Notes under the pieces: generated by a model
What the model saw: only the letters and a program-made list of their open reading frames with translations
The model's database searches: none
What the model was told of the DNA's origin: nothing
Assembly: GCF_900099815.1 (NCBI RefSeq)
Contig: NZ_FNCW01000011.1
Coordinates: forward strand, 1 to 64,000
Length of the DNA: 64,000 nt
Source of the DNA: Psychroflexus sediminis
Lineage (GTDB): Bacteria; Bacteroidota; Bacteroidia; Flavobacteriales; Flavobacteriaceae
Direction of reading: 5' to 3'
Position numbers and translations under genes: made by a program
In this document: piece by piece, positions 6,720 through 13,126 of the stretch
How positions within the stretch are numbered: the first letter of the stretch is position 1
Layout: each line of letters starts with the position of its first letter

Positions 6720-6811
6720 AAGATGTCAGGGCTAACGCCCCTCTCATATACCTCACCTTCTATTTGATTACGAATTTAATTTATGTACCGAGGGGCAGAG
6801 CCCTGACATCT
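6720..6811. repeat. REP-like paired palindromic unit (copy at 6.7 kb)
   Basis: Left arm AGATGTCAGGGCT (6721-6733) is an exact inverted match of AGCCCTGACATCT (6799-6811). GCCCCTC (6737-6743) matches GAGGGGC (6790-6796). Each arm also folds on itself (GGGC-TAAC-GCCC and GGGC-AGA-GCCC). Together they make a roughly 92-base double-hairpin unit. Related units cluster at 12.65-13.03 kb. The form resembles REP pairs mobilised by IS200-like transposases, but no such transposase lies in the window. It fills most of the 317-base gap between metK and the receptor gene. Confidence 0.75.
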
Positions 6812-6841: not shown

Positions 6842-9523
6842 TTACAACTTATAAATCACCTTAAACAGCACAATCCTGGGCTGTACAAAAATCCGCCGGT
6901 CGGAGACGATAAACTCATTCACTGAGTTTTGACGTTTGAAGCCGATATCAAATAAATTGGTGGCATTGACTTCAAAGCCCCAGGCTGAATCTTCTTTGCC
7001 ATAAAACAAAGACGTATCCGCCAGCTCAAAGCGATTGATATCTCCAGTGGTTTGATTTTCGAAATAGTTGTAATCGTAATTGAATTCAAATATAAAGTTA
7101 CCAAAATCATATTCAAGATTAGCAAAAGGCGATAGAGTGGTGAATTTATTGTTGATAACATCAGAATTTAGTCTGGAAAAGCTCTGTCTAACTCCTGTTT
7201 CTATATTGGGTAGCTTATCAAAACGCGTTCTTACTTTGGCATTATAACCGAAGTTGATACTTTCATAATCCAATACCTCATCATTGATGATTCTGGAATA
7301 GTCTGACAAGCTGGTGTTTCCTCCTAAAGTAAAGGTAAAATCTGGAATGCGTTTATTGATCGTAGCATATACACTGTACGTATTTTCGGGTAAGTTGGTA
7401 AAAATACTGGTGCTGATCTGGTCGATACCTTCTATCTGAGTTTGATTCCGAATACTGCTTTCGCGATGCGTATAGGATAAACGCGCATTATAAAATAAGC
7501 CCTTGAACATATTAAACTGACTGTAAAGTAAACTCGCTGAGTGATACACTTGGTTTTGCAGATTTTCATTCCCACGCTGGATTCGGTTAAAGCTCTGGAG
7601 ACTCAGTCTATTGGCATAACTGGAAGCATTTCCAAAATTGGTATAGCGGTTATAATTCAGTCGCAGTTTTTCTGAAGATTTGAATTCATATTCAGCATAA
7701 AATTCTGGTAACAGAATAGCCGTCTGGTCATTCACAAGTTCTTCATTAAATTGAGAAATGTTCCAGTTATAATTTTGGACCACCAGCCCTGGCCGTAACA
7801 CCAGTTCTCCAATCTGAGTTTTATATTGAAATCCTAAAGAGGCCTTAAACAGTTTAAAATCCATTTGATTATTAAATCCTGCTGACTCAAAACTATTGGT
7901 GCTGCCATCGTTTAAAATCTGCTCATCGAGCGTGCTTAGGTTATAGTTGAAATAGTCCACCCCTGCTACCGGATAAATATGATGAAAATCGGCCAGCACC
8001 CAGTAGTGTTTTGCATTCACACTAAGATTGCTGACTTGCTTTTGGTTGAGTTGGTTGAGCCTAAAATCATCACCTTCATCTACCAAAGGGATGATATTGG
8101 TAAACAAAGCCTGGTTGAAATCCCAAAGTCTGTCGGTAGTTTGGTCTTCACTTTTGATTTTAGCTTCCAGTTTTAAGGTGTGTTTATACGAAAACTGTTT
8201 ATTGAGATTGAAGGTTTGTAGGAACTCAAAATTTTCCGGCTGGGTATTGGTATTGATAAACCGACTAGAATTCCCCACTTCAGAAGTTAAAAGGGATTGC
8301 GCCTCGGCTGTATTGTATTTAAAATTGGTATTGGCCCGCAGGTCGGTATCATCATTATTGTCATACCTTAATTTGATCTTACTGATACTAAATAATAAAT
8401 CGTTATCATTAGACTGGTCTCTCACTTCATCTGGCGCTTCTGTAGTTTGGTAAGTGATGTCCTGAAGCGTTTGTGTTCTCATCTTGCTTTTATTGAAAAT
8501 ACTGTAAGCATCCAAACTAAAATTTCCGCCAAGTTCCTGGGAGAGACTGGCCGCTCCAAAATCATTTTTATTGAAGACGAAATCATCTTCTCTTAAGAAC
8601 TGAGCAAAATCATCGGAATACAATCTGGAATACGCTCCCTGGTCTTCCAGAGCCAAGGCCATACCCCCTTCAAAATCTAAATAATCCTGGATGGTAAAGG
8701 ACTTTTGACCCGTATTATTAAAATCGCCAATCGCATTCACGGCGGTTTTAGGGCTGTAATAGAACAGTTTAGGATGCAGTAAAAAGCGATCTTCTACTCC
8801 TGCTCCCGCTTCTACGTCTCCGAATACAAATTTCTTTTTTCCGTCTTTGAGTTTGATGTTCAAGGCCATTTTATCGCTGTCTTCCAGACCTTTTAGAAAA
8901 GCCACTTCGCTATAATTATCCAGAGCTTCTACCTCATCCACAGCATCGGCAGGGATATTATTGACGCCCAACTTTTCATCTCCCGTAAAAAAAGCCTTAC
9001 CATCTACCATGAGTTTGGTCACAGGCTTTCCGTTGACGGTCACATTGCCTTCCCGATCTACTTCAATGCCTGGCAGTTTTTTAAGTATGTCTCTCAGCTT
9101 GCGCTCCTCCCCGGTTTTGAACTGGTCGGTCCGGTACGTGATGGTGTCTTCTTTCACGATCACTGCCATTTCCTGTTTAATCAGGATTTCTTCCAAACTT
9201 TCGGTGCTTTCCTGCATCACAAAATTTCTGGATACGTTCTCAGATAATTGAACGGTATCCGTAATTTTTTTAAAACCCAAATGCGTGATTTCGATTAAAT
9301 ACGGTTGATTCTCTTCCAACTTCAGTCTATACTCTCCCTTGGAGCTGCTGATGCTAAACTTGATTTGGGCATTGGCCTGTTGTAAAGGCGTAGCAATCAC
9401 ATTGGTATTGGCTAGCGGGTTGTCTAGACTATCGCTGATAAAGCCTTCGAGCTGGAAGGATTGTGCAGATGTAACAGTTGTGAATATTGAAAGGATAAAA
9501 AAACATGCAAAACGTTTAAACAT
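6842..9523 (-). CDS. Outer-membrane beta-barrel receptor with carboxypeptidase-like N-terminal domain (TonB receptor-like)
   Basis: 893-aa outer-membrane protein. A signal peptide ends near residue 20 (TSAQ). A carboxypeptidase-regulatory-like beta-sandwich covers about 21-110, a plug-like region about 110-230 (including LKKLPGIEVDREGNVTVNGK), and the rest is a long beta-barrel ending in the aromatic-rich strand FKVIYKL. This layout fits the outer-membrane beta-barrel relatives of TonB receptors that often accompany GLPGLI proteins. No SusD partner is present. It is the last gene of a leftward run behind three GLPGLI genes and a small secreted peptide, so its cargo may be that peptide or a ligand processed by the GLPGLI proteins. 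The cargo is inference only. Confidence 0.85.
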   Translation of the reverse strand: MFKRFACFFILSIFTTVTSAQSFQLEGFISDSLDNPLANTNVIATPLQQANAQIKFSISSSKGEYRLKLEENQPYLIEITHLGFKKITDTVQLSENVSRNFVMQESTESLEEILIKQEMAVIVKEDTITYRTDQFKTGEERKLRDILKKLPGIEVDREGNVTVNGKPVTKLMVDGKAFFTGDEKLGVNNIPADAVDEVEALDNYSEVAFLKGLEDSDKMALNIKLKDGKKKFVFGDVEAGAGVEDRFLLHPKLFYYSPKTAVNAIGDFNNTGQKSFTIQDYLDFEGGMALALEDQGAYSRLYSDDFAQFLREDDFVFNKNDFGAASLSQELGGNFSLDAYSIFNKSKMRTQTLQDITYQTTEAPDEVRDQSNDNDLLFSISKIKLRYDNNDDTDLRANTNFKYNTAEAQSLLTSEVGNSSRFINTNTQPENFEFLQTFNLNKQFSYKHTLKLEAKIKSEDQTTDRLWDFNQALFTNIIPLVDEGDDFRLNQLNQKQVSNLSVNAKHYWVLADFHHIYPVAGVDYFNYNLSTLDEQILNDGSTNSFESAGFNNQMDFKLFKASLGFQYKTQIGELVLRPGLVVQNYNWNISQFNEELVNDQTAILLPEFYAEYEFKSSEKLRLNYNRYTNFGNASSYANRLSLQSFNRIQRGNENLQNQVYHSASLLYSQFNMFKGLFYNARLSYTHRESSIRNQTQIEGIDQISTSIFTNLPENTYSVYATINKRIPDFTFTLGGNTSLSDYSRIINDEVLDYESINFGYNAKVRTRFDKLPNIETGVRQSFSRLNSDVINNKFTTLSPFANLEYDFGNFIFEFNYDYNYFENQTTGDINRFELADTSLFYGKEDSAWGFEVNATNLFDIGFKRQNSVNEFIVSDRRIFVQPRIVLFKVIYKL

Positions 9524-9566
9524 ATATGGACTAGGTTAATGATTTTCTGGCAGGTAGGAAAAGCTT

Positions 9567-10295
9567 TTAATTATCCATGTAGTCTGAATGCGCTTTTTGA
9601 GCCCTTTTATCTAAAGCTTCATAAGTAGTTAATTCCTGACCTGATCTTAATTTTATTATTTGCGGCTTTTCTTTTGTCTCTTGAACTTCAATAGCCCTTA
9701 AAGTTGAGTTATGATTCTCCAATTCTAAAACTGCTCCTGGCAGATCTCCGAATACACTTGGGCTAGCCTTAAAATTTAGACCTGGTGCAAACCATACATG
9801 TACAGGCATAAAACTTGACTTAATGTTTGGTTTATTGGGATTTAATTTTGGTAGTGCTTTAAAACATTTAAAACCTAAAATAGTTTTAGTTTCATTTAAA
9901 ATCTCCCATGTCAAATAGTCCTCATTATCAACCTCTACAACTCGATCTGAAAAAAGTAAATTATTAGCCAGACTCGTACCTCTATCGTAATAAATGGGAT
10001 AAACCGAGGTGACTAGAAGTTTCGCAGATGTTAAAGAAGTAGCATCAAATTGATCACTTTCCATCAGTTTATTAAATGTGGTGTAGTACGTTTCACCGTT
10101 TGATATCATCACAACGTTCAAAAATTCACTGATTTGATTGTATCTTTTTTTTTCTTTTGTAAAGTGATCTACTAAGTATTTTCCTGTTTTCTCAGGAAAA
10201 TCAGGTGGTGGTATTTCATATTCATAGGTTATTTTGAAATTTTGAGAATAACTCGTCAAGTAAAATATACAAACTAATAATGCTAGTCTTTTCAT
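9567..10295 (-). CDS. GLPGLI family secreted protein (copy 3)
   Basis: 242-aa protein with a signal peptide (cleavage near SYSQ18). The family motif appears in altered form as FGDLPGAVLEL at 182-192, preceded by HVWFAPGLNF. A conserved cysteine lies in ILGFKCFKA (C144). GLPGLI proteins (TIGR01200) are periplasmic or secreted Bacteroidota proteins of unknown function, often next to outer-membrane barrels. It is 4 bases downstream of the next GLPGLI gene and 43 bases upstream of the barrel gene, so co-expression is likely. It is the closest relative of its immediate neighbour, pointing to a tandem duplication. Confidence 0.85.
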   Translation of the reverse strand: MKRLALLVCIFYLTSYSQNFKITYEYEIPPPDFPEKTGKYLVDHFTKEKKRYNQISEFLNVVMISNGETYYTTFNKLMESDQFDATSLTSAKLLVTSVYPIYYDRGTSLANNLLFSDRVVEVDNEDYLTWEILNETKTILGFKCFKALPKLNPNKPNIKSSFMPVHVWFAPGLNFKASPSVFGDLPGAVLELENHNSTLRAIEVQETKEKPQIIKLRSGQELTTYEALDKRAQKAHSDYMDN

Positions 10296-10299
10296 AGAA

Positions 10300-11046
10300 T
10301 CAATTGTTAAACATTTTGTTGGAACGTTCTCTTATTCTTTCGTTATAAGTTTTATAGCTAATTGTTTCATAATCCTCTAAAACTAATTCTTTCACTTCTC
10401 GATCGGTTTGATTTACAGATATAGCTTTTATTAGAGCCCTTCCGGTTTTATATTCTAAAATGGCTCCAGGCACATCTCCAAAAACACCAGGAGAAGCTAT
10501 AAAGTTCAATTCTGGTGCAAACCAAACTTCTTCTGGGATGAAAACTCTATCTGGTAATTTATAACCTTCGTTTATAACAGAAACAGCTTTAAAACATTTA
10601 TATCCCAAAATGGTTTTTGAAACTTTAGTAATTTCCCAGTTGAAATACCCCTTTGAAATAGATTTAACTGCAACATCATCAAACGAAGATGAAAATCCAA
10701 AAGACACACCATCCCTATTGTATATTCTAGGAAAAGCTGAAATCCCATATTTAGCAGTTTTTAAATCCGAACCATTTAAGCCGTCAATAAGCATAACATC
10801 ACTGAAGCTTATCATGTAAGAGTCAGAATTGGATATAACCTCTATTGTAATTAACTCAGAAAGTTTTTCGTTTTTCCTATTTAAATTTCGAACAAAAGCT
10901 TTTTGAGTTTTACCCAATTTTTCTCCTTGCTCTGTATTTAAATCAAAACCAACAATTGAGGCTTTATATTCAATTTTATAATTTTGAGCAAAACATAGTT
11001 GCAAGCAAAAAACGAATGAAACAATGAACGAGATTTTTTTTTTCAT
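10300..11046 (-). CDS. GLPGLI family secreted protein (copy 2)
   Basis: 248-aa protein with a signal peptide ending at CFAQ21. Motifs match the neighbouring copy closely: ILGYKCFKA with C151, EVWFAPELNF, and FGDVPGAILEY at 189-199 in the GLPGLI position. The function is unknown for the family. A 240-base gap separates it from copy 1 upstream, with no clear -7 box in it, so it may be read from the peptide promoter or from a weak internal one. The two neighbouring copies share more with each other than with copy 1. Confidence 0.85.
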   Translation of the reverse strand: MKKKISFIVSFVFCLQLCFAQNYKIEYKASIVGFDLNTEQGEKLGKTQKAFVRNLNRKNEKLSELITIEVISNSDSYMISFSDVMLIDGLNGSDLKTAKYGISAFPRIYNRDGVSFGFSSSFDDVAVKSISKGYFNWEITKVSKTILGYKCFKAVSVINEGYKLPDRVFIPEEVWFAPELNFIASPGVFGDVPGAILEYKTGRALIKAISVNQTDREVKELVLEDYETISYKTYNERIRERSNKMFNN

Positions 11047-11286
11047 GGTATACTTTAAAATGTTGTTGAAATTTTACTGAGGTCCATTTTTATGAAAGCT
11101 TAAGTTGATCTGGTTTTTTGTAAGTTTTTAATCTGTTTGTTTTTTCACATTCGAATTAGTCTTAAAACCACCTGGGTCTTCACATTACCTGCAATAATTG
11201 AAAGATAAAATCATTTATTCATATGAAATTTATCGATGAGCATTTTAGTTAAAGTTGAACACATTTAAATGGTTCATTTTATGATA

Positions 11287-11985
11287 TTATTGCCTTGAAC
11301 CTTTCATAATATCTGTAAATTCTTTTTCAGTTATAGTATTATGATTTGGGATTATAATTTCCTTTTGTTTTGAAAAATCAATATTAACAAATTCAAAACC
11401 TGAATATGCCTCTCCTTTTTTGTTAAATTGCTTTGTTTGTATGACTAGGCCTGGTAAACCTACAGCATAAGATGGCCCTATACTCAAAGGTATGTCTGGC
11501 ACAAACCATGCTTCCATTTTAATGTTTTCATTTTCATCAAATTGAATAGCTTTTTTACATGTGTAGCCTTTAATTAATTTTATATCGCCAGTTATTTTCC
11601 AATTGACATTTAATTTTTCTTTGACTAAAAAAGTTTGGCCGCTAATTTCAGTATAATCATATCGTGTATTATTGTTATAGTCAATATAAGTTTCTGGCAA
11701 CATCGAAGTGAGTTGATTATGAGTTATAGATTTATCACCAACTCCCATTCTTTTTTCAATTTTAAAGACACTTTTAGATCCATCAAAAATCAGTACAAAA
11801 GGTAACTCTTCTATAATTTTTTGTAGGTCGTAACCTGGTGTTTTTTGTTTAGGTTTATTATCATCGCTTGAAATATATTGTTTTGTCAGATTTATATATC
11901 TATACTCAATTTTTGCCTGATCTTGACTAAAGCTTGAAATAGAAATTGATAAAATCAAAACAATAATAGTGACTTTATTTATCAT
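11287..11985 (-). CDS. GLPGLI family secreted protein (copy 1)
   Basis: 232-aa protein counted from the ATG at 11985. The longer in-frame start at 12006 is disfavoured because it lies inside a hairpin and adds residues before a good signal peptide (ending near SFSQ). It carries the canonical-looking motif VGLPGLVIQ near 175-183, a cysteine in IKGYTCKKA and WFVPDIPLS, so it is the copy nearest the family consensus. It sits directly behind the 73-aa secreted peptide gene, from which it is separated only by an 18-base perfect palindrome. Function unknown. Confidence 0.85.
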   Translation of the reverse strand: MINKVTIIVLILSISISSFSQDQAKIEYRYINLTKQYISSDDNKPKQKTPGYDLQKIIEELPFVLIFDGSKSVFKIEKRMGVGDKSITHNQLTSMLPETYIDYNNNTRYDYTEISGQTFLVKEKLNVNWKITGDIKLIKGYTCKKAIQFDENENIKMEAWFVPDIPLSIGPSYAVGLPGLVIQTKQFNKKGEAYSGFEFVNIDFSKQKEIIIPNHNTITEKEFTDIMKGSRQ

Positions 11986-11999
11986 TTGATTAAAAATTA

Positions 12000-12017
12000 G
12001 CCCCACTTAAGTGGGGC
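12000..12017 (-). terminator. Perfect palindrome after the small peptide gene, possible attenuator
   Basis: GCCCCACTTAAGTGGGGC is a perfect 18-base palindrome 8 bases after the peptide stop and 14 bases before the start of GLPGLI copy 1. On the minus strand it is followed by TAATTTTTAAT, a weak T-rich tail. Such a hairpin would reduce read-through and raise the peptide-to-GLPGLI ratio, or protect the peptide mRNA 3' end. Confidence 0.6.
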
Positions 12018-12024
12018 GTTATCA

Positions 12025-12246
12025 TTATAGGCAATTTTCTCTGTAATATTTATCAGTTTCAATGTAAGCAATTACTGATCCCCACATTGTATCCACACCT
12101 CCTGCTTGTTCGCCAGCTTCTGTTCCAGCAGCCCAAGCTTCATCCATACATTCACTAGTATCACCGATTTCTTTTATTTCTTCGGTTTGAGCATTCATTC
12201 CTAATGCTAAAGTACTTAGTGCGAAAGTTAATATTACTTTTTTCAT
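12025..12246 (-). CDS. Small secreted acidic peptide with two cysteines, unknown function
   Basis: 73-aa product. Residues 1-20 are a standard signal peptide (MKKVILTFAL... ending NAQ). The mature part of about 53 residues is acidic, rich in Glu, Ala, Gly and Tyr, with cysteines at 33 and 72, the latter one residue from the C-terminus, so a disulfide loop closing nearly the whole mature peptide is possible. I do not recognise the family. It is the first gene of the GLPGLI/receptor operon, has an unusually long leader and is followed by an attenuator-like hairpin, all of which suggest a product made in excess over the downstream proteins. Confidence 0.75.
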   Translation of the reverse strand: MKKVILTFALSTLALGMNAQTEEIKEIGDTSECMDEAWAAGTEAGEQAGGVDTMWGSVIAYIETDKYYRENCL

Positions 12247-12251
12247 GATAT

Positions 12252-12464
12252 TTATTTTAAAATTATTATAATAAAATTTCGATGGTTTACATCGAGTCTC
12301 AGCTCAAGGCTGTACACATCCTCATGAAAAATTCGTATCATTGCAATACGTTAGAGATATGAATTTTCATGTCTTAAATCTGTGGAGCGCTTTTCATCCC
12401 GAAAAGCGCTTCCTTTTTTTCTAGCTAGAAGAACACTTTCATATTGAATAGAGTTATAGTTTGT
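12252..12464 (-). promoter_or_regulatory. Long structured 5' leader of the peptide operon (alternatively a plus-strand RNA)
   Basis: From the predicted start near 12464 to the ATG at 12246 the leader is about 218 bases with three hairpins: AGCGCTTTTC/GAAAAGCGCT (12386-12410, 10 pairs), a longer imperfect stem between CATGAAAAATTC and GAATTTTCATG (about 12330-12391) with an inner CGTAT/ATACG stem, and CGATG/CATCG near 12280-12295. I recognise no known riboswitch. Read on the plus strand, the first hairpin is followed by TCC and seven T, so a plus-strand small RNA ending near 12420 is the alternative. Confidence 0.45.
12384..12420 (+). terminator. Terminator-like hairpin with T-run (plus strand)
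   Basis: AGCGCTTTTC (12386-12395), loop ATCCC, GAAAAGCGCT (12401-12410), then TCC and TTTTTTT. The stem can extend by two pairs at its base. It would end transcription coming from the left on the plus strand; no plus-strand gene is visible there, so it either marks a small RNA or is only a structured part of the minus-strand leader. Confidence 0.45.
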
Positions 12465-12645: not shown

Positions 12646-13034
12646 TAAATGTCAGGGCTAACGCTCCTTATTATTGCATTCTATTATTCGTTTTACAAAG
12701 ATTGCGGGGCTACGCCCCCTCTCACATACCTCACCTCACTTGGTCACATAGATCGTAGGGCTAACGCCCCTATCATGTTTACTCGCACTCTTACTAAGAT
12801 GTCAGGGCTACGCCCCTCTCATATACCTCGCCATCTTAGGCTATGAAGATTGCGGAGCGATGCCCCTTCCAGGTGTTTTTCGTTATAAATATTATTGGGC
12901 TCACGCTTTCATATATGCATTCCCTTAGGACATGAAGACTATTAGGCTACGCCCTTAAAAAAGAGGGCAGAGCCCTCAAATCTTCGTAAAACATGCATAA
13001 AATATATGTACCAAGGGGCAGAGCCCTGGCATCT
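12646..13034. repeat. Cluster of REP-like palindromic units
   Basis: At least seven direct, degenerate units with the core GGGCT(A)ACGCCCC occur at about 12648, 12698, 12750, 12797, 12846, 12895 and 12936. Two opposite-facing arms of type GGGCAGAGCCCT follow at 12964-12975 and 13016-13027. Several units carry the lead AGATGTC or AGATTGC and the tail CTCATATACCTC seen in the copy at 6.7 kb. Unit spacing is irregular (about 40-52 bases). The tract has no coding potential and fills much of the 880-base gap between the peptide and GT9 genes. Confidence 0.75.
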
Positions 13035-13072
13035 ATATCGGTGAAAGATTAAAGAATTGGCCTAAAACCAGA

Positions 13073-13126
13073 TTACAACTTATAGATCACCGTAAACTTC
13101 AAAGGTCTTAAGATGAGTTTTAAAAC
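13073..13126 (-). pseudogene. 17-codon C-terminal scar of a second outer-membrane receptor
   Basis: Directly after the GT9 stop codon, in the same frame, the minus strand encodes KLILRPLKFTVIYKL then TAA. This matches the style and nearly the sequence of the last strand of the intact receptor (RIVLFKVIYKL, 6842-6874). DNA past the stop is also alike in both places (a GGCCT-type word and AAAGAATT, then the AGCCCTG-type REP arm). A paralogous receptor gene with its downstream repeat was probably here and was removed by deletion, leaving only its end. Confidence 0.65.

Follow-up and report, generated by a model that had tools for sequence, protein, structure and literature searches.

In the window, a 64,000-nucleotide (nt) stretch of the Psychroflexus sediminis genome (contig NZ_FNCW01000011.1, positions 1 to 64,000), a five-gene operon encodes a small secreted peptide, three proteins of the GLPGLI family (GLPGLI-A, GLPGLI-B and GLPGLI-C) and an outer-membrane barrel. 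This locus is one unit of a [peptide-GLPGLI]n-barrel system that is widespread in Flavobacteriaceae. Comparison of the loci showed, at the level of sequence, diversified cysteine-bearing precursors, a specific GLPGLI partner for each of them, and one common barrel. As our first choice, held with slightly less than even confidence, the GLPGLI protein would be a dedicated periplasmic binder or carrier of the peptide and the Oar-like barrel would be its conduit. A toxin-immunity interpretation is ranked second, and both may describe one system.

Inspection of the open reading frames (ORFs) of the window placed all five genes on the minus strand in the order peptide, GLPGLI-A, GLPGLI-B, GLPGLI-C and barrel. 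The ORF coordinates thus bear out the layout given in the initial annotation (one strand, peptide first, three GLPGLI genes, barrel), and the ORF translation agrees with its description of an acidic secreted peptide of 73 amino acids (aa) with Cys33 and Cys72. The gene content of the span 6842-12464 proposed there also stands; its end at 12464 does not, being sequence upstream of the peptide start. The proposal of three GLPGLI proteins for one peptide is better replaced by one pair (the peptide and GLPGLI-A) plus two orphans, GLPGLI-B and GLPGLI-C. The features are as follows, with the basis of each in brackets.

12025..12246, minus strand: gene of the 73-aa peptide precursor, class 1 (ORF translation, alignment, profile search)
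12187..12246, minus strand: signal-sequence part, the first 20 codons (identity comparison within and between genomes)
12028..12186, minus strand: mature part, modelled as a helical hairpin (structure model)
12000..12017, minus strand: terminator-like hairpin GCCCCACTTAAGTGGGGC with a T-rich tail, between the peptide gene and GLPGLI-A (RNA folding)
11287..11985, minus strand: GLPGLI-A, 232 aa, partner of the peptide, with a LolA/RseB-like model (TIGR01200, structure model, tree)
11047..11286, minus strand: gap of 240 base pairs (bp) between GLPGLI-A and GLPGLI-B (three-frame inspection by eye)
10300..11046, minus strand: GLPGLI-B, orphan, most closely related to L062_10014, a protein with a peptide of its own (TIGR01200, tree)
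9567..10295, minus strand: GLPGLI-C, orphan (TIGR01200, tree)
6842..9523, minus strand: outer-membrane barrel, 893 aa, final gene of the operon (Pfam domains, comparison of barrel loci)
9218..9451, minus strand: CarboxypepD_reg-like N-terminal extension, barrel residues 25-102 (Pfam match)
8918..9133, minus strand: Plug domain, barrel residues 131-202, Pfam score below cut-off (Pfam match, alignment)
7136..8137, minus strand: OMP_b-brl_3 match, barrel residues 463-796 (Pfam match)

The cut at residue 20 between signal and mature parts is a working boundary and not a predicted cleavage site. GLPGLI-A starts with the ATG ending at 11985; the GTG start listed earlier corresponds to 12006. No peptide remnant was seen in the three frames of the gap between GLPGLI-A and GLPGLI-B when inspected by eye.

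The adjacency of peptide and GLPGLI genes is confirmed as real and beyond chance. The first set included 121 regions, namely the window, 80 regions around TIGR01200 hits in relatives and in the order, and 40 around class-level hits; they were drawn from the listed matches, mostly the stronger ones, and region L089 was chosen via its peptide hit instead. Candidate peptides were recognized by our own rule (K/R, a hydrophobic stretch and a Cys after residue 20) rather than by a signal-peptide program; inspection by eye showed that it missed the peptide of L138 and one at L159, and it falsely admitted L266. Genes without an upstream neighbour inside the region were dropped from the counts. A small signal-peptide ORF with Cys was found at most 400 bp upstream of 62/220 GLPGLI genes and of 10/789 other genes (Fisher p 4e-34, genes taken as independent); since the loci share descent, these p-values overstate certainty. 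When the controls were restricted to genes with a signal peptide of their own, the values were 62/220 versus 3/327. The association was much weaker in the class-level subset (5/55 GLPGLI genes versus 6/256 others).

A second set was picked by the barrel alone and included the best 80 of 189 loci, of which five with less than 1200 bp of upstream DNA were dropped. In this set, the upstream peptide ORF was detected at 92/160 GLPGLI genes, 7/433 other genes and 0/81 barrels. GLPGLI genes lay upstream of the barrel in 74 of the 75 loci with sufficient upstream DNA, and 63 of the 75 contained at least one peptide, although the one at L266 looks spurious. Exclusion of 16 Psychroflexus-like loci left 67/113 GLPGLI genes versus 7/356 others. 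The occurrence of small signal-peptide ORFs upstream of GLPGLI genes, which the initial annotation had proposed to examine, is therefore non-random in both sets.

The same association was obtained from the peptides themselves. M1, K2, C33 and C72 are invariant in 28 aligned class-1 peptides, all sampled beside GLPGLI genes, and the profile built from them gave 52 hits in 60 genomes at an E value of 1.6e-5 or better, the 28 training peptides being included among the hits. Forty-eight hits preceded a GLPGLI gene of the same strand at a distance of <400 bp, three were cut by contig ends and one lay ahead of a barrel without GLPGLI, so peptide homologues do occur at other GLPGLI loci; their absence would have spoken against the initial proposal. 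The 11 hits outside the regions sampled earlier comprised nine beside GLPGLI genes, one cut by a contig end and the barrel case. At L207 (3865-6838), a class-1 peptide gene lies upstream of a barrel with no intervening GLPGLI gene, and at L272, L275, L302 and L311 two tandem peptides precede a single GLPGLI gene. In a wider search, 20 of 349 genomes of the family had a match to the peptide profile at an E value of 1e-4. Among 20 regions examined (19 from this search and one weak hit from the 60 genomes), 16 had the [peptide-GLPGLI]n-barrel layout and four were false hits. By eye, L232 was taken for an HMA-like protein and L236, L239 and L240 for lipoproteins.

In total, 162 distinct candidate peptides, each with a neighbouring partner gene, were collected; identical peptides were removed and near-identical ones kept, as in the hairpin set described below. 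They are strongly acidic, with a net positive charge in only 4/162. The window peptide was modelled as a helical hairpin (helices 31-47 and 54-72) with Cys33 and Cys72 at the open ends. It had no matches to known peptide families in Pfam and NCBIfam, and when 27 of 56 peptides were scanned against these databases, the best E value was 0.0021 and no family was matched by more than one member. The leaders of the 28 aligned peptides are hydrophobic signal sequences, mostly ending near SSF, and no double-glycine leader end was seen among them. An adjacent ATP-binding cassette (ABC)/C39 exporter, as expected for double-glycine-leader bacteriocins, was not recognized when the ORFs between 4000 and 15500 were inspected by eye.

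Removal of redundancy left 35 of 50 peptide-GLPGLI pairs in the first set and 135 of 173 in the wider set. Over the 35 pairs, mean identity was 49% for the first 20 residues, 24% for the mature part and 29% for the GLPGLI protein. Signal identity was 71% within and 48% between genomes (0/2000 label permutations as extreme), and the 75 bases upstream of the peptide gene had the same tendency (47% versus 36%, no permutation test). The mature parts (25% within, 25% between) and the GLPGLI proteins (30% and 29%) exhibited no homogenization. Judging from this identity pattern, the units appear to be mosaic, with a strain-specific promoter and signal sequence followed by an exchangeable cassette of mature peptide and partner.

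The nearest neighbours of mature peptide and partner in other genomes agreed in 22/35 pairs (0.95 expected, maximum 6 in 500) and, in the wider set, in 70/135 (1.03 expected, maximum 5 in 300). When partners were shuffled only within their locus, a mean of 36/135 (maximum 51) still agreed, because loci with a single pair cannot change; in multi-pair loci alone, the agreement was 41/68 versus 13.7 on within-locus shuffling (maximum 26). For the signal sequence and partner, 19/135 agreed, with a mean of 1.1 on free permutation and of 12.7 (maximum 19) on within-locus shuffling. This value exceeds free permutation and equals the within-locus maximum, so the signal sequence retains some dependence on the partner. 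It is the nearest-neighbour test, not the whole-distance correlation, that carries the case for pairing.

The stem-loop between the peptide gene and GLPGLI-A of the window has a T-rich tail, and hairpins are common at this position. From 156 pairs, 91 gaps of 35-160 nt were folded; the remaining 65 were outside this range (55 of them shorter than 30 nt), so the hairpin is called common and not universal. In 82/91 gaps, folding gave z below -2 (mean -4.55), compared with 1/42 GLPGLI-GLPGLI and 10/51 GLPGLI-barrel control gaps, and a stem of at least six pairs including three G-C pairs was present in 59/91 (2.6 expected). The Rfam search gave a single hit, far below the gathering score, and no convincing RNA family. 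The hairpin probably stops or stabilizes the transcript, and the peptide would then be made in excess over its partner.

All three window GLPGLI proteins score above the TIGR01200 cut-off of 50 bits (GLPGLI-A 114.3, GLPGLI-B 56.3, GLPGLI-C 85) and above the gathering cut-off of 27.6 for PNGase_F-II_N (PF22252). For Porph_ging (PF09697, gathering cut-off 25) the scores were 40.0, 20.8 and 20.5, respectively. GLPGLI-B and GLPGLI-C carry GDVPGAIL/GDLPGAVL in place of GLPGLI. The cysteine motif reads KGYTCKKA in GLPGLI-A, LGYKCFKA in GLPGLI-B and LGFKCFKA in GLPGLI-C. Among 106 peptide-bearing GLPGLI proteins, 59 have the motif with Cys, eight have it with Ala and 39 have no match; among 133 peptide-less ones, the numbers are 67, six and 60. 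The motif with Cys thus does not go along with peptides; a role for this conserved cysteine is not supported, nor is a disulfide between it and the peptide as a general feature. Charge complementarity was rejected, as the median net charge of GLPGLI proteins is +3 with and without a peptide (p 0.59).

The GLPGLI protein was modelled with a LolA/RseB-like fold, the one also adopted by the bowl domain of PNGase F-II. Structural alignments to LolA, LolB, RseB and MucB had identities of 3-13% in the rows shown, and a PDB sequence search found no match for GLPGLI-A or the barrel. The initial interpretation is supported in part. Family scans revealed no protease, so the earlier suggestion that GLPGLI proteins process the peptide is not supported; the suggestion that they handle it in the periplasm is supported by co-diversification and by the predicted fold. 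In a FastTree phylogeny (241 of 276 GLPGLI proteins kept), peptide-bearing and peptide-less members are interleaved but not at random, with 57 changes compared with a mean of 77.9 and a minimum of 67 in 200 label shuffles. GLPGLI-B groups with the peptide-bearing P. halocasei protein L062_10014; GLPGLI-C groups with the peptide-bearing P. halocasei protein L062_11032, with the likewise peptide-bearing L088_7121 and with the P. longus orphan L057_9204, to which it is 84% identical. Since their relatives bear peptides, GLPGLI-B and GLPGLI-C probably lost theirs, although gain and loss cannot be distinguished on the tree.

The extension and plug region could be aligned across 10 barrels. The layout occurs mainly in Flavobacteriaceae, with tandem units of up to eight GLPGLI genes ahead of one barrel, which is usually last. 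The reversed order, a barrel followed by GLPGLI without a detected peptide, was found in 15 class-level regions (L136, L140, L144, L146, L150, L151, L153, L156, L161-L164, L167, L169 and L170). A second unit is located in the same genome on contig C18 (L056 5559-7469; G000:C18:100941-103508) and encodes a 69-aa four-cysteine peptide, two GLPGLI proteins that both lack the conserved Cys, and a barrel that shares 24% identity with that of the window.

On the reading ranked first, the precursor would cross the inner membrane via Sec, and the mature acidic peptide would be stapled by a disulfide. The LolA/RseB-like partner would bind it in the periplasm, keep it soluble or inert, and pass it to the Oar-type TonB-dependent barrel for transfer across the outer membrane. 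Strains would exchange cassettes of mature peptide and partner, each strain keeping its own promoter and signal sequence in front of them. In its fullest form, this would be an undescribed secretion route of Bacteroidota. Hypervariable peptides stapled by disulfides would have LolA-like GLPGLI proteins as dedicated carriers, or as carriers that also confer immunity, and would share one Oar-type TonB-dependent exporter. They would be traded together with their partners as cassettes and be used by related bacteria as weapons against, or signals to, each other; we regard this broader proposal as possible and put it forward tentatively.

Several results weigh against the reading ranked first. By our rule, 158/220 GLPGLI genes of the 121 regions have no upstream peptide ORF, and most GLPGLI genes of the f5 genomes lack this barrel, a peptide nevertheless being present in two cases. 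One almost peptide-free clade comprises 24 GLPGLI proteins, mostly longer ones, which adjoin a barrel of their own; the sole exception in it is L114, whose upstream ORF looks doubtful. Peptide-less genes and this clade imply that peptide carriage is not the sole, and not necessarily the ancestral, role of the family. Mature peptide and partner are weakly correlated over their whole distances (Spearman 0.146), with p 0.011 on free permutation and p 0.0005 on within-genome permutation. Two of the three barrel domain matches are below the Pfam cut-offs (PF13620, 31.0 with cut-off 32.3; PF07715, 16.6 with 23.9; PF14905, 27.6 with 27). The tethered model for peptide docking reached a predicted template modelling score (pTM) of 0.70, with docking not settled. 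Intact orphan partners such as GLPGLI-B and GLPGLI-C fit immunity better than carriage.

The strongest alternative, which we consider a serious though rather unlikely one, is that the peptide is an exported narrow-spectrum microcin-like toxin, GLPGLI the periplasmic immunity protein, and the barrel the exporter and/or the receptor on the target; orphan GLPGLI genes would then be retained as protection from peptides of other strains. Specific pairing with co-diversification and the apparent cassette exchange are in line with this. Hits of the peptide family are almost never found without GLPGLI, intact GLPGLI genes without a peptide are frequent and mixed with peptide-bearing ones in the tree, and the orphans of the window have peptide-bearing relatives. 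In three near-identical peptide pairs of L082 and L092, the mature parts have four non-synonymous and no synonymous differences, too few to weigh or to test positive selection. The strong acidity of the peptides argues against a toxin, and the GLPGLI clades that have a barrel but no peptide point to the family having another role; the carrier/sensor fold is neutral between the two readings.

It is improbable that the barrel re-imports the peptide after secretion, as a signal or a scavenging ligand, with GLPGLI as a periplasmic receptor. TonB-dependent barrels normally import (PMC6434023), RseB/MucB, a sensor that binds peptides, is among the fold matches, and the pairing suits a ligand and its receptor; however, no regulator gene was seen in the repeated unit, the other genes there being unannotated, and the use of one conserved barrel by many peptides is more in keeping with a shared conduit than with specific receptors. 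A peptide confined to the periplasm as a cofactor or inhibitor of GLPGLI or the barrel would explain the pairing equally well, but we consider it very unlikely, as an internal cofactor would be less likely to be made in the excess that the hairpin suggests or to diverge so rapidly in its mature part. Chance occurrence of small ORFs upstream of GLPGLI genes has a negligible probability: such ORFs are easily found and some detections (e.g., L266) are spurious, but the association statistics, the paired cysteines, the hairpins after the peptide genes, the co-diversification with partners and the proportions of synonymous (pS 0.193) versus non-synonymous (pN 0.103) differences over seven pairs, one of them spurious, all contradict it.

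Both flanks of the operon contain palindromic repeats AGATGTCAGGGCTAACGCCCCTC / GAGGGGCAGAGCCCTGACATCT (6720-6811, 12646-12836 and 12965-13035). The 106-base repeat unit has no other match in the genome at an E value of 0.001, so the repeats may indicate that a segment was inserted or duplicated. Just upstream of the operon, positions 13073-13115 (minus strand) encode ILRPLKFTVIYKL followed by a stop, resembling the barrel C-terminus VLFKVIYKL; this very short stretch is a possible remnant of another barrel gene. A strong 12-bp stem-loop followed by a T-run is located upstream of the peptide gene at 12384-12412 (plus strand) and is directed away from the operon. The PADLOC anti-phage defence models gave no hits for the five window proteins at an E value of 0.1.

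Taken together, arrays of fast-changing secreted peptides with matching periplasmic partners and one outer-membrane channel look like an undescribed way to make, and probably export, peptides. This offers a first testable role, as cognate peptide, partner and conduit, for part of the GLPGLI family and for a conserved class of Bacteroidota barrels. Should the peptides be exported in this way, the system would be a new secretion route; should GLPGLI be immunity proteins, marine Flavobacteriaceae would have competition peptides of a new class. Under either reading, the candidate peptides and their partner genes are ready for assay.

Class II microcins and bacteroidetocin-type bacteriocins are likewise small Cys-containing peptides with a matched protein encoded next door; the peptides described here differ in having a Sec-type signal instead of a double-glycine leader. 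As in polymorphic toxin-immunity loci, co-diversifying adjacent pairs, orphan partner genes and apparently exchangeable cassettes were found, whereas here the peptide is free and of ~50 residues, the partner has a carrier-like fold and the array ends in a common barrel. The LolA/LolB carriers and RseB/MucB sensors share the predicted fold class with GLPGLI proteins, but GLPGLI proteins are paired with a small peptide from the adjacent gene that is apparently not lipidated, and the identity in structural alignments is low.

GLPGLI, Porph_ging and PNGase_F-II_N have hitherto been family labels only and are linked here to a cognate peptide gene and a barrel. In the open-licence PubMed Central literature, TIGR01200, Porph_ging, PF09697, PNGase_F-II_N and PF22252 are unmentioned and no description of the system was found, although one may exist elsewhere. 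The word GLPGLI occurs in three papers of this literature and, in the accessible parts of two of them (PMC9603813, PMC8757827), only within lists of regulated genes; the bowl domain of PNGase F-II is fused to the enzyme, its function being not known according to the available portion of the source (PMC9522356). A precedent for protein export is the Oar-type TonB-dependent transporter of Myxococcus, which is involved in the secretion of PopC, a 50.8-kDa protease without a signal peptide (PMC6434023). In the accessible part of that article, Oar has a CarboxypepD_reg extension, plug and barrel, an architecture that the window barrel may share, and no GLPGLI partner is mentioned for Oar or PopC, whereas the system described here combines GLPGLI proteins with a putative cargo that carries a signal peptide.

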